NCBI RefSeq assembly: GCF_019970045.1
Contig: NZ_JAHXYI010000004.1
Span: forward strand, 248,001 to 312,000
Reading direction: 5' to 3'
DNA length: 64,000 nt
Origin: Chryseobacterium sp. GVT01B
Lineage (GTDB): Bacteria; Bacteroidota; Bacteroidia; Flavobacteriales; Weeksellaceae
Shown one piece after another: positions 4,604 to 17,355 of the stretch. Every line of letters starts with the position of its first letter. Positions within the stretch are counted from its first letter, which is position 1. The position numbers were made by a program, and so were the translations under genes. The notes under the pieces were generated by a model that saw only the letters and a list, made by a program, of their open reading frames with translations, searched no databases and had not been told where the DNA came from.

Positions 4604-4966
4604 TTATGGTATTTTGCAGCTTTTCTCATCACAATGTATAGGAATTATTTTTCTTTTTACTGCTAATTCCTTATAAATTAATTGTCCGAGACCAGTGATC
4701 TTAAACAGAAAAAGAATTGGAAAAAATATCCAAAATAACGGTAGCCTTAAAAGTATCATATAAATTGTAACAAAACCATATCTCCATTTTTTATTATATG
4801 AAGCCATCTGCTGTTCTGCCAATGTTTTATTTATACCAACAGCTTCGCTAATATGATTGGGATTTCTCAATTCCTTAATTTCCATCATATTCATCCAATC
4901 TAATCTTTTTATATTTCTGACAAACAAAGTACAGTTTGGGCAATAATTATCATAATAAATTTTCAT
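4604..4966 (-). CDS. DCC-family (DUF393) thiol-disulfide oxidoreductase-like protein
   Basis: A 120-residue protein opening with YYDNYCPNC, the CxxC (Cys9, Cys12) signature of the DCC1-like family. After a soluble thioredoxin-like part it has a hydrophobic stretch at about 65-95 (IYMILLRLPLFWIFFPILFLF), probably membrane-associated, and two more Cys near the C terminus. Its ATG overlaps the stop of the ABC permease in an ATGA junction, so the two are translationally coupled and belong to one operon. DCC proteins often sit beside HTTM-domain proteins, as here. Its substrate is unknown. The peptide precursor of this cluster has no Cys, so it cannot simply be making a disulfide in it. Confidence 0.75.
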   Translation of the reverse strand: MKIYYDNYCPNCTLFVRNIKRLDWMNMMEIKELRNPNHISEAVGINKTLAEQQMASYNKKWRYGFVTIYMILLRLPLFWIFFPILFLFKITGLGQLIYKELAVKRKIIPIHCDEKSCKIP

Positions 4967-6321
4967 AACTGGAAAATATTTAGAATAGGTTTACCTGTCA
5001 AATAGGTAGCAAATAAAATAATTAATAGAATATCAATAAATGTGTTATTTTTAAAAACACGTGACATGAAAACTTGAAAACCTGTAAGTATTAAAAAGCT
5101 TAATAATACGTACATATTTTGCGTAAATGAATGTTTTATTAATAATGGTATCAACAATATTACATAGAAAGCAAAGATGATCACATTTTTTGACAGAACA
5201 ATTTCAAAGTTTTTATAAGGTGAAATTTTCTCCGCATAATCGATGTTATATAAGGATAATCTTGTAAGAAATTTATTAATAAAAAGAGTAAAGAAAAAGA
5301 GTAAGGGTAGCAAGAATTTTAAAAAATCTTCTTTTACGGGGAATAATAAAATCCAAATGATAAGAATAGCATAAATTGCAGTTTTGTCTATGGAGCGTGA
5401 GAAAAGATAGAAATCTTTTTGAAGTATATTAAAAAATGACAGATCTTTTTTTATTTGGCTAAAAGAAAATTTAATAGATTTCATTTCTGAGCCTTTTTGT
5501 GAAAAATCGGTAAACATTTTAATTGTAATAAGTTTCCTGTTTATAGGAATTTTAGACAATAAATACACAGTTGGAACAAATAATACCAATGCACCTAATT
5601 TATTCAGCCAGAATAGGGGTAGGATAGGTTCTTGCAGAGAGATAATATGTAGTCTGGATTTTGGAAGATATCCAATGGCAAATACATTTGTTTCAGAAAT
5701 ATTCTTATTGATTATAAAATTTAATTCATGAATTCCTAAAATTCCTAAAAAAAATCTATCATTAAACATGATAAAAAATACCAATATATAATAGACAGCA
5801 TATTTGAGAAAGTTATTTTTTATATAATATTCTATAAAATAACTCAGGCCAGCAACGATCAGTATGTATGGCACCGAAAAATATAAGAGAGGAAAGATGA
5901 AATATGGTCCTGTAAGCTCGATGTTCTGTATGAAAATTGTAATATTCAAAATAAATAGAAATGTCATTCCTATAAAGAAAAGCCCCAGAATTTTATATAA
6001 TGCTTTAAAGAATGAACTTAAAAAAGAAAGATCTTCCTGTACATAAGTATAATTTAAAATTTCCTTTTCTCTTTCTCCTGCTAAAATATGAATCAATAGC
6101 CATGAAATGATCACATTAGAAAAAATTGCAGATACATTTCCAATCCAAAATTTATTTGGAGCAGGACTTATGTTACCCATATAGAATGTTACATAATCAG
6201 CATCTTTACCAGGTATAAGAAAAAGCCCCAACACGATTAAAATCAGGGTGCAGAAAATAAAGGATTTTTTTTTGATTAAATACGTATAGTATAAAGATGA
6301 TAGAGGAAGCAATCTTGACAT
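4963..6321 (-). CDS. ABC transporter permease of the peptide cluster
   Basis: A 452-residue integral membrane protein with about ten to twelve hydrophobic segments in two blocks (about residues 18-200 and 235-450), separated by a basic cytoplasmic loop at about 265-305. I see no peptidase or ATPase domain. It lies 4 bases downstream of the ABC ATPase gene, so the pair form an ABC-2-like transporter. The cargo is most simply the cluster's peptide, either export or immunity by removal from the membrane. Position in the operon supports this, the sequence alone does not. Unusually long ABC-2 permeases of this kind are seen next to peptide toxins in Bacteroidota. Confidence 0.75.
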   Translation of the reverse strand: MSRLLPLSSLYYTYLIKKKSFIFCTLILIVLGLFLIPGKDADYVTFYMGNISPAPNKFWIGNVSAIFSNVIISWLLIHILAGEREKEILNYTYVQEDLSFLSSFFKALYKILGLFFIGMTFLFILNITIFIQNIELTGPYFIFPLLYFSVPYILIVAGLSYFIEYYIKNNFLKYAVYYILVFFIMFNDRFFLGILGIHELNFIINKNISETNVFAIGYLPKSRLHIISLQEPILPLFWLNKLGALVLFVPTVYLLSKIPINRKLITIKMFTDFSQKGSEMKSIKFSFSQIKKDLSFFNILQKDFYLFSRSIDKTAIYAILIIWILLFPVKEDFLKFLLPLLFFFTLFINKFLTRLSLYNIDYAEKISPYKNFEIVLSKNVIIFAFYVILLIPLLIKHSFTQNMYVLLSFLILTGFQVFMSRVFKNNTFIDILLIILFATYLTGKPILNIFQL

Positions 6322-6325
6322 TTAA

Positions 6326-6988
6326 CTATTTATTTTGAAAATTAATATTGTTTTCCAGAGAGGCTGATCCGCTGCTAATAGTTATTTTCTTATCACAAAA
6401 TCTGGAAATTTCATCTATTAAATGTGTTGATAGAATGACGATACTCGTTTTTGAAATATCTTTTAGAAGTAAATACATTTTTTCACGTTCCAGATAATCT
6501 AGATTATTTACAGGTTCATCAAGTATCAATACATTAGGGCTGTTAATGATGGATAAAGCAAATGAAATTTTTTGCTTAATTCCTCCCGATAGGTTTTTTA
6601 CTTTTTGTTTTTTATAACTTTCTAAGTCAAAATCTTTTATAATCTTTAAAATGTTATTATGGAGGCTTTTTTTCTCACATCCTTTCAAAAGGCCGAAATA
6701 AGTTAAATTTTGGATAATATCGAAATCTTGGATAAGGCCAAGATTCTGAGACATAAACCCCAAATCTTTTCTTAGAGATTGTGGCTTATTTAATACTGAA
6801 ATGTCATTATAAAAAAAATCTCCTGTTGATGGTTGTTTTAATGTTGAGATAATATTAATTAGTGAAGTTTTTCCTGTGCCATTTAATCCTAATAAGGCAT
6901 AAAGCCCATTTTCAAATTCTAGATTAATTTTATTTAAAATTATTTTATCTCCAATTTTATAGGAAATATCTTTAAGTTGTAACTTCAT
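6326..6988 (-). CDS. ABC transporter ATP-binding protein of the peptide cluster
   Basis: A 220-residue ABC ATPase that energises the adjacent permease. Walker A GLNGTGKT is at 34-41, Q-loop Gln at 81, signature LSGGIKQ at 133-139, Walker B VLILDEP at 153-159 and the switch His in ILSTHL near the end. I use the ATG at 6986-6988 because it begins the standard fold (MKLQLKDISYKIG). The frame is open 14 codons further upstream inside the SdpB-like gene. With this start the gene overlaps the SdpB-like gene by 17 bases, which indicates translational coupling. The length and signature are of the ABC-2 type (bacteriocin/lantibiotic immunity or export, LptB-like size). Confidence 0.92.
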   Translation of the reverse strand: MKLQLKDISYKIGDKIILNKINLEFENGLYALLGLNGTGKTSLINIISTLKQPSTGDFFYNDISVLNKPQSLRKDLGFMSQNLGLIQDFDIIQNLTYFGLLKGCEKKSLHNNILKIIKDFDLESYKKQKVKNLSGGIKQKISFALSIINSPNVLILDEPVNNLDYLEREKMYLLLKDISKTSIVILSTHLIDEISRFCDKKITISSGSASLENNINFQNK

Positions 6989-7904
6989 TATTCTTGTTTT
7001 TTTGTTTAAATATAACCGATCGTTTTTCATCCAAATATTTCATTAGTATAGAGAACTTGCCCGGATAGAAAGCAATTATATTAAAAAGTAACATTGCGAT
7101 AGAAAAGGTATATATTTTTATGACCAGAGCGATTACAATATGCATAATGATTATATTGATAACCGTCCATTTTCTTATATTTTTACTTAGAAAAACAAAA
7201 ATAGGAAATAAAAGTTCCAATATCGTTACATGTAATGAGGCTAGTTGATAAATAAACTTTGGAATGTGAGCAAAAAATGAGTTAATTACTTTTTCATCTA
7301 AATAATGATTAATACAAAGCCAAATTGCATTACCATCCAGCCAGTCAAACCCTAAAACTTTACCAAATCCTCCAAAAAAATAAATAATACAAAGCTGGAT
7401 CTGCATTAGCCTTACAGCAAACGAGAATATAATACCTTTATATGATTCAACTTTTATCTGATCTTCAATACAAAAAAAAAGATTGATGTAAAGCAGAAAA
7501 GCTATCATAAAATCAGCACCATAGGATAATAAGTAAGCAGAATTAAGAAATACCGTATGCAGGAAAATGACTATAATAGCAAACAGAATTTTCCAATAAT
7601 TTAGCAATATCATTATCAGAGAAATAAGATATAAGTAAAAGGGAATAATGAATGCATACTTATACTCAATACTAGTTAAGGAAATTATGTTTTCAGTAAG
7701 TGTAGATACTTTTATTTTATCTGCAGAAACAAAATTACTATTCAGAGATTCGCTTATTATTCCGTTTTTAGAGTATATACTGTATAAATCCGGAAATATT
7801 GATAGTATATTAATTAATGCTAAAATACTTATCAAATAAATAAAAATTTTTGTGTTTTGGGAATCATCTTTATAAGAAGTCATAAATGAAACTATCTTAT
7901 TCAT
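6972..7904 (-). CDS. SdpB-like HTTM-domain membrane protein
   Basis: A 310-residue membrane protein with about eight hydrophobic segments. Residues 165-191 carry the HTTM signature, RLMQIQLCIIYFFGGFGKVL followed by W188 and G191. The HTTM (vitamin-K-carboxylase-like) superfamily includes SdpB, which together with SdpA is required to mature the SdpC toxin peptide in Bacillus subtilis. The first 8 bases overlap the end of the SdpA-like gene, and the end overlaps the ATPase gene. Order and size agree with an SDP system. I rate HTTM membership as firm and SdpB orthology as likely from context. Confidence 0.75.
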   Translation of the reverse strand: MNKIVSFMTSYKDDSQNTKIFIYLISILALINILSIFPDLYSIYSKNGIISESLNSNFVSADKIKVSTLTENIISLTSIEYKYAFIIPFYLYLISLIMILLNYWKILFAIIVIFLHTVFLNSAYLLSYGADFMIAFLLYINLFFCIEDQIKVESYKGIIFSFAVRLMQIQLCIIYFFGGFGKVLGFDWLDGNAIWLCINHYLDEKVINSFFAHIPKFIYQLASLHVTILELLFPIFVFLSKNIRKWTVINIIIMHIVIALVIKIYTFSIAMLLFNIIAFYPGKFSILMKYLDEKRSVIFKQKNKNNEVTT

Positions 7905-8457
7905 GGGTGTTTAACTTTTTAATGTTATATGCATTTATACTTTTTTTATTTCCTTGATATTTTTCATCTAATAACCTAATCCTTCTGACAGAAACAATAA
8001 AATTCATATCTTTTATTTCCTTATTTTGATTAAGCATGAAAATGGATATATCCTTTACCAGCTTATTTCTTTTTTTTCTATTATCAAACATATTGGTCAG
8101 GTTTATTGACATAGACATGTATTTGACATTAGATTCTTTAGTGTTGAAAGATATTGGTATGGGAATATTTGTACTGTTTGTAGTGAAACTGTATTCAATC
8201 TTATTTCTATTAAGATTAGGTGAATAGAATGCATATCCCCTGTCAATTCCGGCATAATTTGAATAGTACATTATGATGTCAGGATAGTATGATGTATCAG
8301 TTGGAACTATGTGTGCATAAATTTTTCCAACGGGATTTAATGCTATTTTTTTTATATCTTTAAAATATCCCAGCGAATAGATATTATTTGTTATTGATAC
8401 TATTGCATGAAATATTAAAATAAAAAAAATAAAGAATATCCAAGTATTTTTTTTCAT
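7897..8457 (-). CDS. SdpA-like exported/membrane-anchored protein
   Basis: A 186-residue protein with one N-terminal membrane anchor or signal (about 6-28) and a soluble part. The segment IDRGYAFYSPNLNRN (about 70-84) resembles the aromatic-plus-Pro motif that follows the anchor in SdpA proteins, and the following region is beta-rich. It sits immediately upstream of and overlaps the SdpB-like gene, exactly where SdpA is found. Sequence similarity is weak by eye, so SdpA-like is a call from architecture and neighbourhood. An alternative is any membrane-tethered accessory protein of unknown family. No catalytic residues are recognisable. Confidence 0.55.
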   Translation of the reverse strand: MKKNTWIFFIFFILIFHAIVSITNNIYSLGYFKDIKKIALNPVGKIYAHIVPTDTSYYPDIIMYYSNYAGIDRGYAFYSPNLNRNKIEYSFTTNSTNIPIPISFNTKESNVKYMSMSINLTNMFDNRKKRNKLVKDISIFMLNQNKEIKDMNFIVSVRRIRLLDEKYQGNKKSINAYNIKKLNTHE

Positions 8458-8487
8458 TGAAAACTTTAATATAAAAGTGATAATAAA

Positions 8488-8514
8488 TGAGCTGTCCGAA
8501 TGATGGACAGCTCA
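8488..8514 (-). terminator. Hairpin between the peptide gene and its processing genes
   Basis: A perfect 10-bp inverted repeat TGAGCTGTCC/GGACAGCTCA with a 7-base loop lies 18 bases past the peptide stop. The following T-tract is weak (ATTTATTATC). It could therefore be a partial terminator or an mRNA-stabilising stem that makes the peptide message more abundant than the downstream message, as is common in bacteriocin operons. Confidence 0.6.
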
Positions 8515-8531
8515 ATAAAGCTTTGGTAAAA

Positions 8532-8750
8532 TTATTCCCAGCCTCCTAATCCAGCAATGTCCTTGCTCCAAAGAAGTACGAAACCTGCTGCTGCTTCAGT
8601 TTCAAGCTGCTCTGCATTTTTTTCTGTAACAGCAGTGTTATTTTTGTTAGCTTCAACTGTACTATCGTTTGCTTTTGCAAAAGTAAATAGTGATGTAGAA
8701 ACTAAAGCTACTGCTACTAAAGCTACGATTGACTTAGTTTTCTTATACAT
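8532..8750 (-). CDS. Exported peptide precursor, candidate toxin or signal of the SDP-like cluster
   Basis: A 72-residue precursor. Residues 1-27 are a signal peptide ending in FTFAKA. Residues 28-52 are a polar, acidic spacer rich in Asn, Thr and Glu. Residues 53-72 (AAAGFVLLWSKDIAGLGGWE) form a short amphipathic hydrophobic tail with two Trp and no Cys. This three-part layout is that of a secreted precursor from which a C-terminal membrane-active peptide is cut. In SDP systems the toxin is likewise cut from a secreted precursor, though SdpC itself is longer and carries a disulfide. The gene is followed by a hairpin and then the SdpA-, SdpB- and ABC-like genes. The peptide family is unknown to me. 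The toxin role is inference. Confidence 0.7.
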   Translation of the reverse strand: MYKKTKSIVALVAVALVSTSLFTFAKANDSTVEANKNNTAVTEKNAEQLETEAAAGFVLLWSKDIAGLGGWE

Positions 8751-8829: not shown

Positions 8830-9684
8830 CTAAAGTTTGTTATTAGTTTCTATATTGTAAATATTGTTTTTAAGAATATTCATTACTTTTTTATTTTCAG
8901 CTTTAATAACTTCTGATACAGTTCTACCGTCAGGCATTTTCTTATTCATATCGTCTGAAGTCATTTTATTTATAAGTTTTCCCATTGGATTTTCTTGATA
9001 ATCCTTAAACATGGTTAAAAATTTTCTTTTATCTACTTCAATGATATTTTTACTGCCCAATTTATCTGAGAATGAGTTCTCTTCGTAATTTGTTATCTTT
9101 TTATTGCCGGCTAAAACCCATGAAAATTCTTTTTTCTCATCCTCAATCTTCACGATTAAACCAGGCAATCCGAAAAATTTATATGGACCATCTTGAAATG
9201 GAATTGTTTTACTGAACCAAGCTGTCCATTTTCTTCCATTAAATTCAACAGTCGCTTTTTGAACAGGATATTCGTTAATTGTAGAGGTTTCTGTTTTTAT
9301 TTTCCAATTTAACTTAGCCTCTTCAGAGTAATTAAACTTATCATTTAAAATTTTATCATAGAAATAAATTTCTTTACTTGGATTTTTCTTTATAACCTTA
9401 TAAGAAAAAACAGGAATTTTAAGCATTTTACTTAGATCAGGGGTATTACCTGATTGTTTAGATTTTTGTAAAATATCATTAATGAGTGAATCCTGGGAAA
9501 CAGATAAGTAATCTCTATAGATTGATTTATCACCCGTAATATCAAGGATTGTTAAAATTTTTTCATAAGTCAAAGAATCCTTATTCTTTTTATAGGTAAG
9601 TTCATAGAAAAATCTATTAGCTTCAGTTTGACTATATGTCTTGCTAAAAAATAATACAATGATAATAAAGAATGCTTTCTGCAT
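8830..9684 (-). CDS. GLPGL-family exported protein
   Basis: A 284-residue protein with a signal peptide (about 1-18, ending KTYSQ) and the family's namesake motif FFGLPGLIVKIED at about 170-182. GLPGL proteins are Bacteroidota-specific secreted or periplasmic proteins of unknown function, often near TonB-dependent receptors or regulators. The region before the motif has YPVQKATVEFNGRKWTAWFS, typical of the family. It is 80 bases upstream of the peptide precursor on the same strand, and I see no promoter in the gap, so it may be co-transcribed with the SDP-like cluster. Whether it takes part in that system is open. Confidence 0.88.
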   Translation of the reverse strand: MQKAFFIIIVLFFSKTYSQTEANRFFYELTYKKNKDSLTYEKILTILDITGDKSIYRDYLSVSQDSLINDILQKSKQSGNTPDLSKMLKIPVFSYKVIKKNPSKEIYFYDKILNDKFNYSEEAKLNWKIKTETSTINEYPVQKATVEFNGRKWTAWFSKTIPFQDGPYKFFGLPGLIVKIEDEKKEFSWVLAGNKKITNYEENSFSDKLGSKNIIEVDKRKFLTMFKDYQENPMGKLINKMTSDDMNKKMPDGRTVSEVIKAENKKVMNILKNNIYNIETNNKL

Positions 9685-9878: not shown

Positions 9879-11636
9879 TTATGATGTAATTGATTTCTCA
9901 ATTTCTTTAATGTAAATAGAAGTGGTAGTCCCTGTTTTTTTCTTAAATGCGACAGAAAAAGCCTGCACATTGTTGTAACCAAGCTCTTCTGCGATAGCTG
10001 GAAGCTTATAAGATCTGAATTTTTTGTCTTCTATTAATCGTTTTAATACATAATCAATACGTAAATCGTTAAGATAAGAATTGAAGTTTTTACCTTTACT
10101 GTTGTTGATAGTTTCAGATAAATATGCAGTGTTGGTTTTTATTTTTTTAGCCAAATTAACTAAAGTGATACCTTTTTTTAGGTATAACTCTTTAGCTTCA
10201 AAAGTTTTCAGTTCTTTAAGAATAGATATCTTGACATCCTCAGGGATAATTTTAGCAGTTTTTTCTTCTGCTTCTACTGTTTCAGTTTCCTCAATTTCTA
10301 ATTCTTCTACTTCAACCTGCTTCAATATTTGGGGTATCGAAGTTTCGTTATTAATGTCAGTAGGAGTAATATCCTTTTTTTCAAATTGCTGAATTAATTC
10401 CTGAGCAATTTTCCGGTGTTTTTTTTCAGTCTTTTTTGCTTTATAATAGAGATATAGAATTAATAATAGTATTATCAATAAAATTACAATAGAAACATGT
10501 AAAATTGTTTTTCTGTTATTTAAGTCATTAATTATATTTTCCTTTTCCTGTAAAAGGTTAGGTGTATCATATTTTTTAGGCAATTCTGTGGATAAATATT
10601 GGAACTGCTCATCAAGTTTTTTGTCTACTTTTAAAAATCGTTCAATATAGTACAGTTGCTTTTCTTTATCATTTTTTTCTTTGTAATAATCGATGAGATA
10701 AGTATATATTTCCCGGAGCTTAGGAAAAGTAATTTCTGTTTTTTGAACATTACTATCTAGTAATATAAAATACTGTGCAGCTTTTTCTTTGTTTTTTAAA
10801 CCATCATAAGCTTTACCCAGATCATAAAGTGCATAATTAGCATTGTTTTCATTGATTTTTATTAAATCATTATAAACAGTGGTTAGCTTTGTAATTGCTG
10901 TACCGTATTTTTTCTGCTTTAAGTCATACTTTCCGGATAAAAAAGAGTATAAAGTAAGATCATAACTATTTTTATTGGTATTAGCGAATGCTTGCCCTTC
11001 CTGAATGAGAATATTTGCAGAATCCAGCTTATTGATCTCAAGATAACAACTTATAAGTGCTATGCGTATTTGATTTTGCTGATATTCGTCTGTTATATTA
11101 TTCCTGTTATACAAATAACCTCTGAATATCTTCGCAGCCTCAACGTTTTTACCTATATAGCTATTAATATAAGCAATGTTCATATTAGCATAAGCTGTCT
11201 GTTTTTCATCATTCTGCTCTTTAGCATATTTTAACCCAAGAACATAATTGTCTAATGCTGCTTTTAAATTATCGTACTTATAATATAGATTTCCTTTTAT
11301 CAAGTAAGTTCTGGCAGGATATAAGTTTCCCTTTATATCTTTTGTAATTAAAGCTAAACTATCAATGTACTTTAAGGCAGTGGGGAAATTTTCATTAAAA
11401 TGTATAAGATTATAGCCTTCAGCTATTTCTAAAGTATTTTTTTCTTTTTTAGCTTTTTGTAGATAATATTTACCAATTCGTTCAGACTGAAGAGTTTGGT
11501 TATGATCGTAATAATCATAAAACTTATTCTTTAGCTGAGAGTAATTAAATTCATATAAGCTATCAATTTTATTCTTCTGAGCGCTTATCAAATTATTAAA
11601 TAAAAATATTATAATTAGAAATATATACTTCATCAT
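9879..11636 (-). CDS. Membrane-anchored TPR / AraC-type regulator
   Basis: A 585-residue protein. A signal or anchor (about 1-19) precedes a periplasmic TPR-like helical repeat region (about 30-340), a membrane helix at about 370-392 (ILHVSIVILLIILLLILYLYY), an acidic linker rich in Glu and Val (about 415-455) and a C-terminal AraC-type helix-turn-helix (about 470-575, with LAEELGYNNVQAFSVAFKKKTG near the end). Such one-component receptors bind an external signal and control transcription directly. I start it at the ATG at 11634-11636 because the -7 box at 11651-11658 leaves no room for an earlier start. It is divergent from the lanthipeptide operon and may sense its product. Confidence 0.85.
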   Translation of the reverse strand: MMKYIFLIIIFLFNNLISAQKNKIDSLYEFNYSQLKNKFYDYYDHNQTLQSERIGKYYLQKAKKEKNTLEIAEGYNLIHFNENFPTALKYIDSLALITKDIKGNLYPARTYLIKGNLYYKYDNLKAALDNYVLGLKYAKEQNDEKQTAYANMNIAYINSYIGKNVEAAKIFRGYLYNRNNITDEYQQNQIRIALISCYLEINKLDSANILIQEGQAFANTNKNSYDLTLYSFLSGKYDLKQKKYGTAITKLTTVYNDLIKINENNANYALYDLGKAYDGLKNKEKAAQYFILLDSNVQKTEITFPKLREIYTYLIDYYKEKNDKEKQLYYIERFLKVDKKLDEQFQYLSTELPKKYDTPNLLQEKENIINDLNNRKTILHVSIVILLIILLLILYLYYKAKKTEKKHRKIAQELIQQFEKKDITPTDINNETSIPQILKQVEVEELEIEETETVEAEEKTAKIIPEDVKISILKELKTFEAKELYLKKGITLVNLAKKIKTNTAYLSETINNSKGKNFNSYLNDLRIDYVLKRLIEDKKFRSYKLPAIAEELGYNNVQAFSVAFKKKTGTTTSIYIKEIEKSITS

Positions 11637-11650
11637 TTTGTAATACAATG

Positions 11651-11658: not shown

Positions 11659-11834
11659 CATTTTTATTCATCAAATAGAAATTCTTGAAAAAAATAAAGA
11701 AAATATGTAACTTAATAATAGTGTGATTATTAGACTGTTTTTAGTATTATTGATTTATAAATCCAGAATGTGTTTTTATTGCAGTTTTGAAAAATATTCT
11801 TTTATTTGCTGCTAGTTTTTAAATATTATCATTA

Positions 11835-12002
11835 ATGAAAAAGGCAATCAAATCTGAAAAAAAATTATCGCTAAAGAAATTACAAATAATGAAAATTAGC
11901 GAAATGAAAACAATTATTGGAGGCAATAATCAGCTGGAAAAAGACGATAGTGATGAACCAGGGACATTATTACCTAATAATACTATATCAGTGAGAGGTT
12001 AA
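11835..12002 (+). CDS. Class I lanthipeptide precursor without cysteine
   Basis: A 55-residue peptide. The leader (1-30) has the Bacteroidota lanthipeptide pattern KLSLKKLQIMKISEMKTIIGG, ending in Gly-Gly at 29-30. The 25-residue core (NNQLEKDDSDEPGTLLP then NNTISVRG) contains Ser39, Thr44, Thr50 and Ser52 as dehydration candidates, and Pro42 and Pro47. It has no Cys, so a lanthionine ring cannot form within it. The next gene, a prolyl oligopeptidase, starts 2 bases after the stop, and two LanB genes follow. The leader and context make a modified peptide very likely. The product may be a linear dehydroamino-acid peptide. Confidence 0.8.
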   Translation: MKKAIKSEKKLSLKKLQIMKISEMKTIIGGNNQLEKDDSDEPGTLLPNNTISVRG

Positions 12003-12004
12003 AA

Positions 12005-14176
12005 ATGAAACAATTAATATTTATCATTATTAGCATTTTCTATTCTTTCTTTCTATATGCTCAAAAAAGTAATCCAGCTCCCTCTATTTCGGCAACAGAC
12101 GAATATTTTGGGAACAAGATTGTAGATGAATACAGAAATTTAGAAAACTTAGATAATCCTTCAACAAAAAAATGGATGAAGGAACAAACAGATTATACCA
12201 ACTCTATTCTTGGTAAGATTCCCAAAAGGAAGTTTTATTTAAATCAAAGACTGGAATTTGATCAAAGACAAGGTTACTCCATTTCGAATTTAAATATAAC
12301 TAATAATGATAAATATTTCTATTTAAAGAAAAATGGCAATGAGAAAGTTGCCAAATTATATTACCGGGAGAGCTTTTCTGGAGAAGAAATACTTCTTTAT
12401 GATCCGGCAAATTATAAAAGTAATGAACAAAATCATCAATTTGTTATTAATTATATTATCCCCGATTTAATTGGAAATAGGATAGCTGTTTCGATGGCTG
12501 AAAAAGGGAAAGAACTTTCAGAGGTTATTATTATAGATGTAAAAAGCAAATACATCTATCCCGAAGTTATTGTTAATACAGCACCTGCAAATATAGGAGG
12601 AATAAATTGGTTGGATGATAATTCTGGCTTTTTCTATACATATTTTCCAATAAAGGACTCTAAGTCTTCTGATTTCTATAAAAATGCACAAGTTGTTTTA
12701 TACAAAATAGGAACAGACCCAAAGAAAGTAGTAGATGTTTTTTCCGCCAGTAATAATCCAGAACTAAAAATAGATGAAAAGAAAGCTCCTATTATTTTAG
12801 ACTCTAACGACAGATTTTATATTGGAATGCTACTTGATAATGAGTATTACAGACAAACATTTATCATTGCAAAGCAAGATTTGTTAGAAGGTAAAAAAAC
12901 ATGGAAGCCTCTTTATAATAAAGAAGATAAAGTGAGATCTCTACAACTCTCAGACAATGATTTATTTTTCTTATCCCAATACAATTCTCAAAACAATACA
13001 CTTTGTAAGACAAATCTTGTAAAACCTGATTTTAGAAATCCTGAAATACTTATTCCTGAAAAAACAGATGAAGTTATTGGGCAATACAGAATAACTAAAG
13101 ATGGTATCTATTATACTACAACTAAAAATGGAGTAGAAGCAAAGCTATATCAATATAAAGAAGGTAAAGATCGTTCGATTGGGCTTCCCTATCCATCTGG
13201 TAATATTAGTTTAAAGGCGAAAGGAAAAGATTTTTCAGAAATCTGGGTTAGCTGCTCAGGATGGGCAAATGAAGAACAACGTTTTAGATATGATTTGAAA
13301 ACTGGTTTATTTTCTCCTGAAAGTTTAACTCCAATTACAGATTATCCAGAATTTAGAGATATTATAGTTAAAGAAATCACTGTAAAAGCAAGAGACGGAG
13401 AAGAAATACCATTATCTCTTATATATAATAAAAATATTAAGATGAATGGTAAAAATCCTGTATTAATAGATTCTTATGGAGCATATGGATATTCTAGAGC
13501 CCCATTTTTTTCTAGAATTTATTTATTATGGGCCAATCAGGGAGGAATTTTTGCAATCGCCCATGTGAGAGGAGGAGGTGAAAAAGGAAAAAAGTGGCGT
13601 TTAGGGGGATATAAAGAAACGAAGCCTAATACGTGGAGGGATTTAGTAGACTGTACAGAATATTTAATTAATAAAAAATATACCTCAAAAGATAAAGTTG
13701 CAATTTGGGGAGCCAGCGCAGGAGGAATTACGGTGGGAAGAGCAATAACAGAAAGACCAGACCTTTTTAAAGCTGCAATTTTGGAAGCTCCATCTATTAA
13801 TACATTGAGGAATGTGATTAGTATGGATATTAACTCAGAGGAATATGGAAATATAAAAGATCCAAAAGAATTTAAAGCTTTGCAGGAGATGGATGCATAT
13901 TACCACATAAAAAAAGGAGTAAAATATCCTGCAACATTTATAACAGCAGGAATAAATGATCCAAGAGTAATTGCGTGGGAGCCTGTAAAATTCGCGGCTA
14001 AGTTGATGGCTGATAATAGTTCTAAAAATCCAGTATTACTTCAAGTAGATTATGAAGGAGGTCACGGAAATAATACAACTGCTGCTCATGGGCATGCTAA
14101 TCTATCAGATATTTTTGCTTTTGCCTTCTGGCAATTAGGACATCCTGACTACCAGCCTCAAAATCAAAAAAAATAA
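12005..14176 (+). CDS. Secreted prolyl oligopeptidase (S9A), likely precursor-processing
   Basis: A 723-residue serine peptidase that cuts short peptides after proline. It has a signal peptide (about 1-20, ending LYAQ), an N-terminal beta-propeller region (about 75-430) and a C-terminal alpha/beta hydrolase domain. The catalytic Ser is in GASAGG (about residue 570), the Asp in GINDPR (about 650) and the His in EGGHGNN (about 686). Also typical of S9A is AHVRGGGEKGKKWR (about 518-531). It sits between the precursor and LanB genes in one operon. S9-type peptidases are known leader proteases in some lanthipeptide systems (FlaP in class III). The substrate link is inference. Confidence 0.9.
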   Translation: MKQLIFIIISIFYSFFLYAQKSNPAPSISATDEYFGNKIVDEYRNLENLDNPSTKKWMKEQTDYTNSILGKIPKRKFYLNQRLEFDQRQGYSISNLNITNNDKYFYLKKNGNEKVAKLYYRESFSGEEILLYDPANYKSNEQNHQFVINYIIPDLIGNRIAVSMAEKGKELSEVIIIDVKSKYIYPEVIVNTAPANIGGINWLDDNSGFFYTYFPIKDSKSSDFYKNAQVVLYKIGTDPKKVVDVFSASNNPELKIDEKKAPIILDSNDRFYIGMLLDNEYYRQTFIIAKQDLLEGKKTWKPLYNKEDKVRSLQLSDNDLFFLSQYNSQNNTLCKTNLVKPDFRNPEILIPEKTDEVIGQYRITKDGIYYTTTKNGVEAKLYQYKEGKDRSIGLPYPSGNISLKAKGKDFSEIWVSCSGWANEEQRFRYDLKTGLFSPESLTPITDYPEFRDIIVKEITVKARDGEEIPLSLIYNKNIKMNGKNPVLIDSYGAYGYSRAPFFSRIYLLWANQGGIFAIAHVRGGGEKGKKWRLGGYKETKPNTWRDLVDCTEYLINKKYTSKDKVAIWGASAGGITVGRAITERPDLFKAAILEAPSINTLRNVISMDINSEEYGNIKDPKEFKALQEMDAYYHIKKGVKYPATFITAGINDPRVIAWEPVKFAAKLMADNSSKNPVLLQVDYEGGHGNNTTAAHGHANLSDIFAFAFWQLGHPDYQPQNQKK

Positions 14177-16390
14177 ATGTCTCGTTTTCCATATCTTTTT
14201 TTTGAGGAGTATGTTGTACGTACTCCTATGTTATCATATAAAAACTTCCATAGAAACTTCCATAAAGAAGAAGTTTTGGATGAAGAAGTAAAAGAAGTAT
14301 ATAGTGATCCTGCCTTTCAGGAATCCATCTATCTTGCGTCACCTGATTTATATGTGGCATTAAGAAAATGGATTGACTCAGAAAAAGAATTTTCGCCCAA
14401 AGAATACCAAAGACTAAATTATACCTTTTTGAAATACTATAGCCGAATGAGTACACGCAGTACACCATTCGGCTTATTTTCTGGAGTTAAATTGGGGAAA
14501 TTCACGGATGAAACTGTTGCGGCTAAAAATCACAAATTAATGATAACTGACCAAATTAGAGATACTAAACTTGATATGCATTTTTTGGTTGGTTTGGTCA
14601 ATCATTTTGTAAAAACGCCGAAAATAGCAGATCAGCTTTTATTTTATCCTAATAATAGTATTTACAAATTAGGTAATAAAATAAGGTATATCGAATATCA
14701 ACAGTTAGATGGGAAAAGAGAACACATTATTTCATCTGCTTTAATTTCTGACGAACTAAAGAGTATACTGGATTTTTCCAAACCAGGAAAAACCATTCAT
14801 CAAATTTCAAAAATCCTTATTAATGCTGAAATTACAATTGAAGATGCTGCAGAATTTGTAGAAGAGCTCATCAATAATCAAATACTTGTAAGTGAATTAG
14901 AACCTAATGTTTCAGGAAAAGACTTCTTAGATACTATTATCTCTGTTTTAAACAGAATAAAAGCTGAAAAAGAAGTTGAAATTTTAATTTTGATAAAAAA
15001 GAAACTAGAAGAATTAGATCAGGAAATTACGAATCCAATTTGTAAATATGCTGAAGTTGAAGGATTAATTAAATCTTTTGAAATTGAATACGAACAAAAA
15101 TATTTATTTCAAACAGATTTGTATTTCAAGGATACTTTTGAATTATCAACTAGTTGGAAAAAGAAACTTAAACAAGGAATTAGCTTTTTAAATAAAATTA
15201 ATTTTAAGGAAAGGGAAAATGAATTTTCAATGTTTAAAAAAGCTTTTTCCGAAAGATTTGAATCACAGGAAATACCTTTATTGTATGTTCTTGATGCTGA
15301 AGTTGGAATTGGTTATAAACAAAATGTTTCAATTAAAGGTATGCATCCTTATTTAGATGATTTGAAAATTTCAAATTCTAAACAGCAGAATTTACATATT
15401 AAGTTTAACCCGGTTCATAAAATTCTTAACGAAAAGTTGCAAGATGCGTTGTTGGAAGATTTGTATAAGATTGAGTTAACGGATGAGGACTTTAAAGACT
15501 TTAATGAAAGCTGGAATGATCTGCCTGATACAATTTCTTTTTTTGCAGAAATTATTACGGATCATAATCAAGAAAAATTATGTTTAAATAATAGTACAGG
15601 AAACAGTGCAGGGAATCTGCTGGGAAGATTTTGTTCAGAAAAAGCGGAAGTACAACATTTGACAAAAACTATTGCGGACAAAGAGGAAGAAATAAACCCA
15701 GAATTTATTCTAGCAGAACTTATTCATTTGCCGGAATCCAGAATAGGAAATATAATAAGAAGGCCAACCTTAAGGCAGTATGAGATCCCTTATTTAGCTC
15801 AATCTCTGTTACCGTCAGAAAATCAAATACAAGTAGAAGATTTATATATTTCTTTGAAAAATGATAGGATCGTATTACGCTCAAAAAAATTGGATAAAGA
15901 AATTAAACCTTATCTTACAAACGCCCATAATTATCATGCAAATACTCTACCTGTTTATCATTTTTTATCTGATCTGTATTCCCAAGATGTAAAATCAGGT
16001 CTTTATTTCAGTTGGGGAGGATTGGAACATATTTATACATTTTTACCAAGGGTAGAATATAATGATATCATTCTTTCAAAAGCTCGGTGGAAGATAACAG
16101 AAAAAGCTATTTCATTTTTGGAATCATCAATTTTAGATAAGAAAAATTTTTTACTAAAAGTAAAAGAGTGGAGACAGAAGAGAAAAATTCCAGTATGGAT
16201 TCAATGGGTAAAGTTTGATAACACTCTAACAATAAACCTTGAAAATTATGATATGGCAATGCTTTTTATACAAACTGTAAAAAAAGAAAAGACAATCATT
16301 ATTGAAGAATTTTTATGGAATGAAAATGATGATTTTAAGCGTGAATTTGTATTTCCTATGTATAAAGATAAAAAAGTGAAGAATGACTGA
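14177..16390 (+). CDS. Lantibiotic dehydratase, glutamylation half (LanB N-terminal)
   Basis: A 737-residue protein matching the large N-terminal domain of class I LanB, which uses glutamyl-tRNA to glutamylate Ser/Thr of the precursor. RMSTRSTPFGLFSGVKLGKF at about 93-112 is the family signature, and RRPTLRQYEIP occurs at about 531. Full LanB proteins are near 1000 residues. Here the elimination domain is a separate downstream gene, as in the pinensin system. The start codon follows the peptidase stop directly (junction TAAATG) and the end overlaps the next gene by 8 bases, so the genes are coupled. No LanC cyclase or LanT exporter is nearby. Confidence 0.9.
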   Translation: MSRFPYLFFEEYVVRTPMLSYKNFHRNFHKEEVLDEEVKEVYSDPAFQESIYLASPDLYVALRKWIDSEKEFSPKEYQRLNYTFLKYYSRMSTRSTPFGLFSGVKLGKFTDETVAAKNHKLMITDQIRDTKLDMHFLVGLVNHFVKTPKIADQLLFYPNNSIYKLGNKIRYIEYQQLDGKREHIISSALISDELKSILDFSKPGKTIHQISKILINAEITIEDAAEFVEELINNQILVSELEPNVSGKDFLDTIISVLNRIKAEKEVEILILIKKKLEELDQEITNPICKYAEVEGLIKSFEIEYEQKYLFQTDLYFKDTFELSTSWKKKLKQGISFLNKINFKERENEFSMFKKAFSERFESQEIPLLYVLDAEVGIGYKQNVSIKGMHPYLDDLKISNSKQQNLHIKFNPVHKILNEKLQDALLEDLYKIELTDEDFKDFNESWNDLPDTISFFAEIITDHNQEKLCLNNSTGNSAGNLLGRFCSEKAEVQHLTKTIADKEEEINPEFILAELIHLPESRIGNIIRRPTLRQYEIPYLAQSLLPSENQIQVEDLYISLKNDRIVLRSKKLDKEIKPYLTNAHNYHANTLPVYHFLSDLYSQDVKSGLYFSWGGLEHIYTFLPRVEYNDIILSKARWKITEKAISFLESSILDKKNFLLKVKEWRQKRKIPVWIQWVKFDNTLTINLENYDMAMLFIQTVKKEKTIIIEEFLWNENDDFKREFVFPMYKDKKVKND

Positions 16391-17228
16391 AAGAAAGTTT
16401 ATTCCGGGAAGTGAATGGTTGTATCTGAAGATTTACACAGGAATTAAAACATCAGACAGTATTCTGGAGGAAGTTATACAACCTTTGCTCGATTATTTTA
16501 TGGAGAGTAATTATATTATGAAATGGTTTTTTATCCGCTATAATGACCCTAAACCACATTTGAGGTTAAGACTGAAATTGAATACTATAGAAAATTATAA
16601 CACAATTCTAGAAAAAATTAATTATAGTTTTCAACCTTATGTAGATAGTGGAGAAATTTCGCTTGTAGCGATTGAAACTTATATCAGGGAAATTGAAAGA
16701 TATGGACAAAATACAATAGAAGACGCAGAGACATTATTCCATCGAAATAGTGAATTTACTTTGCAATGTTTGCATTATGATGATGAAGAAAAAATCATAG
16801 TTAGTTTCTTTTATATTGATCAACTTTTAAACAAGTTAAACCTTTCATTTCAGAAAAAGTTAGACTGGATTAAGGATTCCAATGATGCTTTTAAAAAAGA
16901 ATTCAATGCTGACAAAAAACTCAACAGTCAATTGGATAAAAAATATAGGGGATTTAAACCAAAATTTCTTGATTTTCTTACTTCTGAAGATTTTTTAGAG
17001 GAAAGAAGTGCCGTTCTTTTCAATATTGAAAAATGTAGTTCAATATTGAAAAATATTCTTAATTATAATGAAGATCAAGTCTTAGAGATGTCTTTGCGAA
17101 CTTTCTTTCAAAGCATATTCCATATGAATATAAACAGGATGTTTGTATCTAATCAAAGGCTGTTTGAAATGGTGATTTATGATTATTTGTTGAGGTATTA
17201 TAAAATGGAAGCTTTTAAAAATTTGTAG
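16383..17228 (+). CDS. Lantibiotic dehydratase, elimination half (SpaB C-terminal type)
   Basis: A 281-residue protein of the thiopeptide-type/SpaB C-terminal family, which removes glutamate from glutamylated Ser/Thr to leave dehydroalanine or dehydrobutyrine. The opening WLYLKIYTGIKTSDSILEEV and WFFIRYNDPKPHLRLRLKL (about 55-73, basic active-site strand) are characteristic. It overlaps the preceding LanB half by 8 bases. It is the last gene of the operon. A terminator follows about 95 bases later. Together with the preceding protein it completes a split LanB. Confidence 0.9.
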   Translation: MTERKFIPGSEWLYLKIYTGIKTSDSILEEVIQPLLDYFMESNYIMKWFFIRYNDPKPHLRLRLKLNTIENYNTILEKINYSFQPYVDSGEISLVAIETYIREIERYGQNTIEDAETLFHRNSEFTLQCLHYDDEEKIIVSFFYIDQLLNKLNLSFQKKLDWIKDSNDAFKKEFNADKKLNSQLDKKYRGFKPKFLDFLTSEDFLEERSAVLFNIEKCSSILKNILNYNEDQVLEMSLRTFFQSIFHMNINRMFVSNQRLFEMVIYDYLLRYYKMEAFKNL

Positions 17229-17322
17229 AAATATTCGCCAAACGATTTAATTTGGGAGATAAGGAATAATAAGTTTAGCTGTTTTTAAACTGAAAGTTAT
17301 GAAGACTATAAATGAAAAAACA

Positions 17323-17352
17323 AAAAAACCTCTAAATAATTAGAGGTTTTTT
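17323..17352. terminator. Bidirectional terminator after the lanthipeptide operon
   Basis: AAAAAACCTCTA/TAGAGGTTTTTT with a 6-base loop. T-runs on both strands let it end the plus-strand operon and the minus-strand tRNA-Cys transcript. Confidence 0.85.
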
Positions 17353-17355
17353 CTG

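Follow-up and report, generated by a model that had tools for sequence, protein, structure and literature searches.

The 64-kb window analysed here (contig NZ_JAHXYI010000004.1, positions 248,001 to 312,000; all coordinates below count from its first base) belongs to the 5.15-Mb genome of Chryseobacterium sp. GVT01B and carries a peptide locus with a split LanB. Four genes follow one another on the plus strand: a 55-residue precursor peptide without Cys (11835-12002; leader MKKAIKSEKKLSLKKLQIMKISEMKTIIGG, core NNQLEKDDSDEPGTLLPNNTISVRG), a 723-residue prolyl oligopeptidase (POP) of the S9A type with a signal-peptide-like start, likely the maturation protease (12005-14176), the glutamylation half of LanB, here LanB-N (14177-16390; Lant_dehydr_N, Pfam E 1.5e-131), and the elimination half, LanB-C (16383-17228; Lant_dehydr_C / TIGR03891, E 1.4e-63), the nearest named relatives of which are from Chryseobacterium. 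Successive genes are separated by 2 nt and by 0 nt and then overlap by 8 nt, and thus leave no room for a second precursor within the operon. Upstream and divergent, on the minus strand, lies the gene for a 589-residue TPR-HTH_18 protein, a predicted membrane regulator (9879-11648), translation of which probably begins at the ATG at 11636. A terminator-like hairpin of 14 pairs with T runs, reported on the minus strand, lies ~95 nt past LanB-C (17322-17353).

The leader of the precursor is rich in lysine and ends in Gly-Gly; residues 31-55 form the core, which contains Ser39, Thr44, Thr50 and Ser52 but no Cys. A first-pass annotation, made from the sequence alone, had described this peptide, and we confirmed the description from the open reading frame (ORF) and its translation. 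It had also called the leader lanthipeptide-type, which holds for the Gly-Gly end and for the LxLxK-type motif (LxLxKx5L, fitted as LSLKK-LQIMK-I, with Ile replacing the last Leu), but not for the Gly-Gly precursor family TIGR04149, to which the leader scores 18.8 bits, below the cut-off of 25. Likewise, the LanB that it placed after the precursor is indeed split, though not directly next to it, with POP between them. The same annotation allowed that a Cys-containing precursor nearby might have been missed; a leader hidden Markov model run across the window, on ATG starts, found no second precursor, Cys-bearing or otherwise.

Dehydratase, cores and LanC

Aligned with NisB, LanB-N is identical at Y80, R83, R87, T89, D121 and D299 and has Met in place of T122. 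LanB-C is identical at R784, R786, E823 and R826, the last three of which we take to be functionally important. The H-x-N-x-NR motif of the NisB H961 region was also seen in LanB-C, by eye, in the 9g04 alignment. In NisB, the mutations Y80F and H961A abolish dehydration and R83A and R87A impair it, while D121A, D299A and R784A have little effect (PMC4341554; papers are cited here by accession and for the portions of their text that were available). Since NisB functional residues are kept in both halves, the pair appears to be a functional split dehydratase, with both activities of a class I LanB represented at the sequence level.

For a view of the cores beyond the window, we defined a clade of LanB-C matches better than E 1e-60, with 48-100% identity, which occupies 108 places and is carried by 95 of the 173 genomes of the genus. 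Counting the window, 86 of 97 clade loci supplied the 87 precursors surveyed. Cores have no Cys in 50 cases, one Cys in 37 and two or more in none, and every one of them contains Ser or Thr; by eye, they appear short, acidic and hydrophilic. As a control, 33 of 35 LanC-linked cores in the genus have at least two Cys (the control pattern yielded precursors at 14 of 21 LanC-linked loci), and the two single-Cys control cores resemble the one-Cys type of the clade. Among the 11 loci at which the precursor pattern gave nothing, L095 and L103 do have a precursor, and L065 and L125 are short stretches of 3-6 kb. One row each of L060 and L076 was left out as an artefact, and the distant true precursors of L076 and L077 were added.

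Cys and Ser/Thr are spaced as C-x6-[ST] in 24 of the 37 one-Cys cores, which are related and not independent. With this spacing, one-Cys cores could form a thioether without LanC, and we regard them as candidates for a LanC-free thioether ring; the window peptide cannot form one. This sister type, with its Cys at the N-terminal side of the core, is found at L042, L052, L057, L061, L067, L070, L080, L081, L098, L108, L123 and L124, among others. One-Cys precursors adjoin LanC-linked clusters with Cys-rich precursors at L139 and L140.

In the window core, Thr44 sits in an xTLIP-like motif. The corresponding Thr of EPxT[LQ][LI]P is kept in all seven relatives with a POP at least 72% identical, which were picked by POP identity alone, independently of the motif. 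The closest relative, G055, has an identical core, with four synonymous and no nonsynonymous changes over 25 codons in this one pair.

The first-pass annotation reported no cyclase, and a genome-wide search found no LanC in the locus. The genome does have two LanC genes (PF05147), both on contig C11, in tandem in another cluster with a fused 1043-residue LanB, a C39-ABC gene and four Cys-rich precursors. The precursors of this second lanthipeptide cluster (L037, G000:C11:75000-94000) are near-identical, with core VNSLQAAAQSCGQCSCGGNT... LanC was found in 84 of the 173 genomes of the genus, and no PF05147 match in 40 of the 95 carriers of the clade, among them G055; 39 of these 40 genomes are at least 93% complete (G135, 73%). 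Within the clade stretches themselves (3 to 19.5 kb), LanC is present in one of 96, L078, where a separate, pinensin-like precursor is encoded as well. The LanC-linked LanB loci of the genus belong to other LanB groups, ~33-40% identical to the window LanB-C and mostly with Cys-rich cores. Because so many carriers have none, including the closest relative with its identical core, LanC is seemingly dispensable for this system. A LanC acting on the product and a core Cys, both expected of a class I lanthipeptide, are lacking in the locus, and the family as a whole has zero or one Cys. Measured against pinensins, the split LanB and the LxLxKx5L/Gly-Gly leader are present, and LanC and a Cys-containing core are absent.

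Module, regulator and co-variation with the core

We clustered ORFs of at least 100 residues around 97 relative loci, located via LanB-C. These comprise 96 of the other 107 clade places (11 of the 108 are not included) and one outgroup locus, L096, where LanC and a Cys-rich precursor are present. LanB-C is present at all 97 loci, LanB-N at 95 and the regulator at 83. The peptidase is POP at 71 loci and an X-Pro-type S15/PepX_C enzyme at 27 (assigned by Pfam on one example); one or the other occurs in the stretch at 91 loci, and at 90 it lies no more than 7.5 kb upstream of LanB-C. The arrangement of the window locus is not due to chance, given that it recurs in relatives and that the core has no nonsynonymous change with respect to its closest relative. 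Outside the genus, L241 (Aquimarina mytili), L243 (uncultured Aquimarina) and L245 (a Flavobacteriaceae strain) have LanB-C relatives with 38-40% identity, accompanied, in a different order, by Gly-Gly precursors and by genes related to those for the regulator and POP, and no LanC was found within their stretches. Across 17 outgroup loci, ten have no LanC in the stretch and seven do (L239, L240, L246, L251-L253 and L257), and therefore we consider the outgroups mixed.

The window POP has the Peptidase_S9_N and Peptidase_S9 domains (Pfam Peptidase_S9 E 1.3e-46), and its closest solved relatives are prolyl endopeptidases (E 2.8e-69). The beta-propeller, the S9 catalytic domain and, by eye, the Ser/Asp/His triad agree with the S9A assignment; the signal-peptide-like stretch was also read by eye. 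No dedicated exporter lies in the locus, as the first-pass annotation had stated, but two C39-ABC exporters are encoded elsewhere in the genome. C39 peptidase domains occur in 169 of the 173 genomes, including all 95 carriers, and the four genomes without them are non-carriers. At 36 or more of the 108 clade places, a C39 gene lies within 30 kb, a count picked by eye and with no chance expectation attached. The site on contig C3 (L175, G000:C3:12000-31000) contains a C39-ABC gene, an HlyD-like gene (by eye) and a VKOR-thioredoxin protein. A DUF3810-like gene of that site, also named by eye, recurs within the stretch at 26 of the 96 clade loci; in the window genome no LanB lies beside it.

The regulator consists of a hydrophobic N-terminal helix, a TPR sensor (about residues 32-350), a long helix (362-427), the first part of which resembles a membrane span by eye, and a C-terminal HTH_18 domain (499-580). 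We modelled it with AlphaFold2 from 40 sequences (pLDDT 83.9, pTM 0.60). The modelled TPR part (about residues 32-360) matches the peptide pheromone receptors Rap-Phr (Z 23.0), NprR-NprX (22.7) and AimR-arbitrium (18.5) and is, in the model, a superhelix of the peptide-binding kind, as in RRNPP receptors, though a common fold is no proof of ligand binding. The two hydrophobic helices, as judged by eye, would speak against the cytoplasmic placement of RRNPP receptors, which rely on oligopeptide import; with one at the N-terminus and one between TPR and HTH, we infer that the TPR part is periplasmic. Close paralogues of the regulator are encoded elsewhere in this genome (L173 7015-8730 and L174 8132-9877; 63% and 53%). 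No recognised precursor, peptidase or LanB was found alongside these orphan copies (C36, C33), which might be receptors working alone or what is left of lost loci.

In the intergenic region shared by regulator and precursor, 37 of the 50 divergent loci have the element TTTATAAA ~82 nt ahead of the precursor start, against a mean of 5 and a maximum of 13 in mononucleotide shuffles; with the regulator on the same strand, 9 of 28 loci have it (mean 2.1, maximum 7). The window copy is part of a strandless 12-bp perfect palindrome, GATTTATAAATC (11752-11763), a candidate operator. A consensus promoter scan gave no excess (33 versus a shuffle mean of 31.8).

We then compared pairwise distances among the 49 loci that have both a divergent regulator and POP. 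Core distance correlates (Spearman) with that of the TPR part at 0.652 and of POP at 0.573, and less with that of HTH (0.42), LanB-N (0.402), the leader (0.328) and LanB-C (0.139). Given HTH, the partial correlation of core and TPR is 0.55 (0/199 permutations as high), and that of core and POP given TPR is 0.178 (0/199); given TPR, the values for the core are 0.038 with HTH (33/199) and -0.02 with LanB-C (141/199). Multiple regression assigned beta values of 0.479 to TPR and 0.193 to POP (each 0/499) and 0.106 to LanB-N (29/499), with the rest ~0. In a non-redundant set of 31 loci, the correlations with the core are 0.593 for TPR, 0.563 for POP, 0.321 for LanB-N, 0.321 for HTH, 0.287 for the leader and 0.07 for LanB-C. 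In windows along the regulator the correlation peaks at residues 121-200 (0.64) and drops to 0.42 at the N-terminus, the part closest to the precursor. In the 28 same-strand loci, where the C-terminus is nearest, the peak is still in the TPR part (0.50), with values of 0.419 for the whole regulator, 0.225 for LanB-N and 0.200 for LanB-C. TPR is tracked more by the last 16 core residues (0.632) than by the first 8 (0.37). Sequence comparison would be expected to give such a pattern for a ligand that a receptor recognises and a protease cleaves, with a leader-guided dehydratase indifferent to the core.

Proposed function and rival explanations

We propose the following course of events. The leader would recruit the split LanB, with LanB-N glutamylating and LanB-C eliminating, such that at least one core Ser/Thr, with Thr44 the first candidate, becomes dehydroalanine or dehydrobutyrine; no lanthionine would form, since there is neither Cys nor LanC. 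A C39-ABC exporter encoded elsewhere (e.g., on contig C3) would cut after Gly-Gly and move the core to the periplasm. There, POP, exported via its own signal peptide, or the X-Pro S15 peptidase at other loci, would trim the core at proline, in the window peptide after Pro42 and/or Pro47. The mature C-terminal part may then be bound in the periplasm by the TPR domain of the divergent regulator, and the HTH_18 domain of the latter, on the cytoplasmic side, would control the locus through the shared intergenic region.

That the product is linear, or at least non-lanthionine, and dehydrated we consider likely. The first-pass annotation had offered this alongside a partner Cys from another molecule; the LanB residues and the 40 LanC-less carriers favour the former, and the lack of a LanC match in G055, with its identical core, disfavours a partner Cys joined by a LanC acting in trans. 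Its observation was right but incomplete, having overlooked POP, the receptor-like regulator and their co-variation with the core. On account of these three, a signal is the more likely function, and we lean, by a little, towards the reading as a whole, in which the peptide is modified by LanB, matched to its own membrane receptor and, most likely, secreted as a signal.

Several results weigh against it. Dehydration, export, cleavage and signalling are computational predictions, as are membrane topology, binding and autoregulation. The TPR model also matches APPBP2 (Z 26.1), LGN and APC/C proteins, i.e., eukaryotic TPR proteins score as high as the pheromone receptors or higher, and in Foldseek LGN-type eukaryotic TPRs come first, with Rap from rank 25; the fold alone is thus not proof of pheromone sensing. 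With helices assigned by hand, TPR columns of inner helices follow the core modestly better than those of outer helices (0.18 versus 0.13, P = 0.014; loops 0.16), the column with the highest value belongs to an outer helix, and of the 25 best, 11 are inner, 8 outer and 6 neither. In the non-redundant set, POP co-varies with the core nearly as strongly as TPR. Finally, LanC is commoner in carriers (55 of 95) than in non-carriers (29 of 78; Fisher P = 0.009), although cluster-rich genomes may hold more of everything, and with one Cys in 37 of the 87 cores the wider family might make a LanC-free thioether.

The last two points bear on a lanthionine-type product, in which the dehydrated residue is linked, spontaneously or by a LanC encoded elsewhere, to the Cys of another molecule, or to the core's own Cys in one-Cys relatives. 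The two LanC genes of the window genome and the C-x6-[ST] spacing would suit it; we nevertheless hold it very improbable in view of the Cys-free window core, the LanC-less carriers (including the closest relative) and the association of the genome's LanC genes with a fused LanB and Cys-rich precursors. Only slightly less improbable, in our judgement, is that the LanB pair is no dehydratase at all and either leaves the glutamyl group on or transfers an amino acid from tRNA. PEARLs are kin to LanB and, to our knowledge, have no elimination domain. They attach amino acids to the C-terminus of a peptide (PMC10979984), which gives this idea its precedent, but in the window LanB-N has its elimination partner adjacent, both halves are found at 95 of the 97 relative loci, and the window residues that we checked are conserved.

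Two further explanations, both of which we consider unlikely, leave the chemistry as proposed. Many class I LanB products are antimicrobials, and the peptide could be a linear dehydropeptide antimicrobial whose regulator senses the product only for auto-induction. Nisin can induce its own biosynthesis (PMC4341554), and an auto-inducing bacteriocin would give the same co-variation of core with receptor and peptidase, which itself counts against a dedicated signal. Against an antimicrobial speak the short, acidic and hydrophilic appearance of the cores, the persistence in this genome of two orphan regulator copies with no recognised precursor or LanB, and the absence, by eye, of an immunity-like or dedicated exporter gene from the 25 largest ORF clusters of the 97 loci; as ORFs below 100 residues were outside the clustering, a small immunity protein could be missed. 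The co-variation of core and TPR might, on the other hand, reflect linkage or shared ancestry only, with the regulator sensing something else: the genes are neighbours, the loci are related, and permutations that shuffle loci are blind to the tree, so that shared ancestry stays in. Yet co-variation is much weaker for the leader and HTH, which share a gene with the core and with TPR, respectively, and for both LanB halves, and the 31 non-redundant loci retain 0.593 for TPR. The peak falls within the TPR part in either orientation, and linkage alone therefore explains the co-variation poorly.

If the signal reading is correct, the locus would exemplify a new kind of Bacteroidota cell-cell signalling, in which a LanB-dehydrated, non-lanthionine, proline-trimmed pheromone is read by a membrane-spanning TPR-HTH_18 one-component receptor that senses the periplasm, with many co-evolving specificities of peptide, receptor and peptidase across Chryseobacterium and related modules in Aquimarina. 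We put this forward tentatively, as a possibility with nearly as much for it as against it. It would mean a second use of LanB, to mark a linear signal instead of making lanthionine rings, and would give a large bacterial genus a family of peptide-receptor pairs that is diversifying.

Neighbouring genes and known systems

Directly downstream of the regulator, on the minus strand, is a gene for a GLPGLI-family protein (8830-9684), with relatives within the stretch at 23 of the 97 relative loci. It is followed by five minus-strand genes, partly named by eye, that form a possible SDP-like peptide cluster (4963-8750): a 72-residue secreted-looking peptide (8532-8750), a 186-residue SdpA-like protein named by position, a 310-residue SdpB-like protein (TIGR04033 E 4e-4, under the cut-off), and ABC ATPase-like and permease-like proteins named by eye. 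We considered these genes as cargo of the regulator and rejected the idea. Of the 97 relatives, only L097, the stretch of which may stop short of the permease, was found to have the SdpA-like gene and the small peptide; the SdpB-like gene was found at four loci and the permease at one (L100). Being nearly absent from relatives, the SDP-like genes are placed outside the module. A reading of the region as a defence system was likewise discarded, as eight proteins compared with PADLOC gave no match.

LanB chemistry, Gly-Gly export and TPR pheromone receptors are each known separately. An open-access literature search, with most subscription papers outside its scope, returned no description of a LanC-free LanB module with a TPR-HTH_18 regulator, and the available portions of PMC3091789, PMC10352776 and PMC10734526 describe no such module. 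PMC7268733, in the portion available, reports class I clusters with split LanB, and LxLxKx5L leaders and C39 proteases in Bacteroidetes. Its precursors were restricted by distance to a LanC-domain protein and cores without Cys were discarded; by these rules, that survey could not list peptides of the present kind.

The closest comparison is with pinensins and other Bacteroidota class I lanthipeptides, which share the split LanB and the LxLxK-type Gly-Gly leader (PMC7268733). The first-pass annotation had drawn the link to pinensins through their split LanB, in agreement with that paper, although the LanC-linked LanB loci of the genus fall into other groups. Pinensins have LanC, Cys and lanthionine, whereas the window system has no LanC, its family has zero or one Cys, and POP or S15 and the TPR-HTH_18 gene are added. 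Within the genus, ChmABC of Chryseobacterium sp. OV715 shares class I LanB chemistry, its Cys-containing precursor being dehydrated in E. coli with native tRNA-Glu and GluRS (PMC9993889); unlike the window system, it has LanC and a precursor Cys. Goadsporin and thiopeptides are alike in using split LanB to install dehydro amino acids in non-lanthionine ribosomally synthesized and post-translationally modified peptides (PMC10676384), but carry YcaO azoles; no YcaO was noticed by eye in the largest neighbour clusters here, no search aimed at it having been made. FlaP is likewise a POP encoded beside a dehydrated peptide (PMC10885120), although in a class III system with macrocycles, while the window has a class I LanB, predicted dehydration and no cyclase in the locus. 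The RRNPP receptors Rap, NprR and AimR resemble the window regulator in their TPR sensor (Z 18-23 for the model) and in the neighbouring peptide gene. The window regulator differs in its hydrophobic N-terminal and transmembrane-like helices, which place the sensor, by prediction, in the periplasm, and the window peptide in being a likely substrate of the LanB pair.

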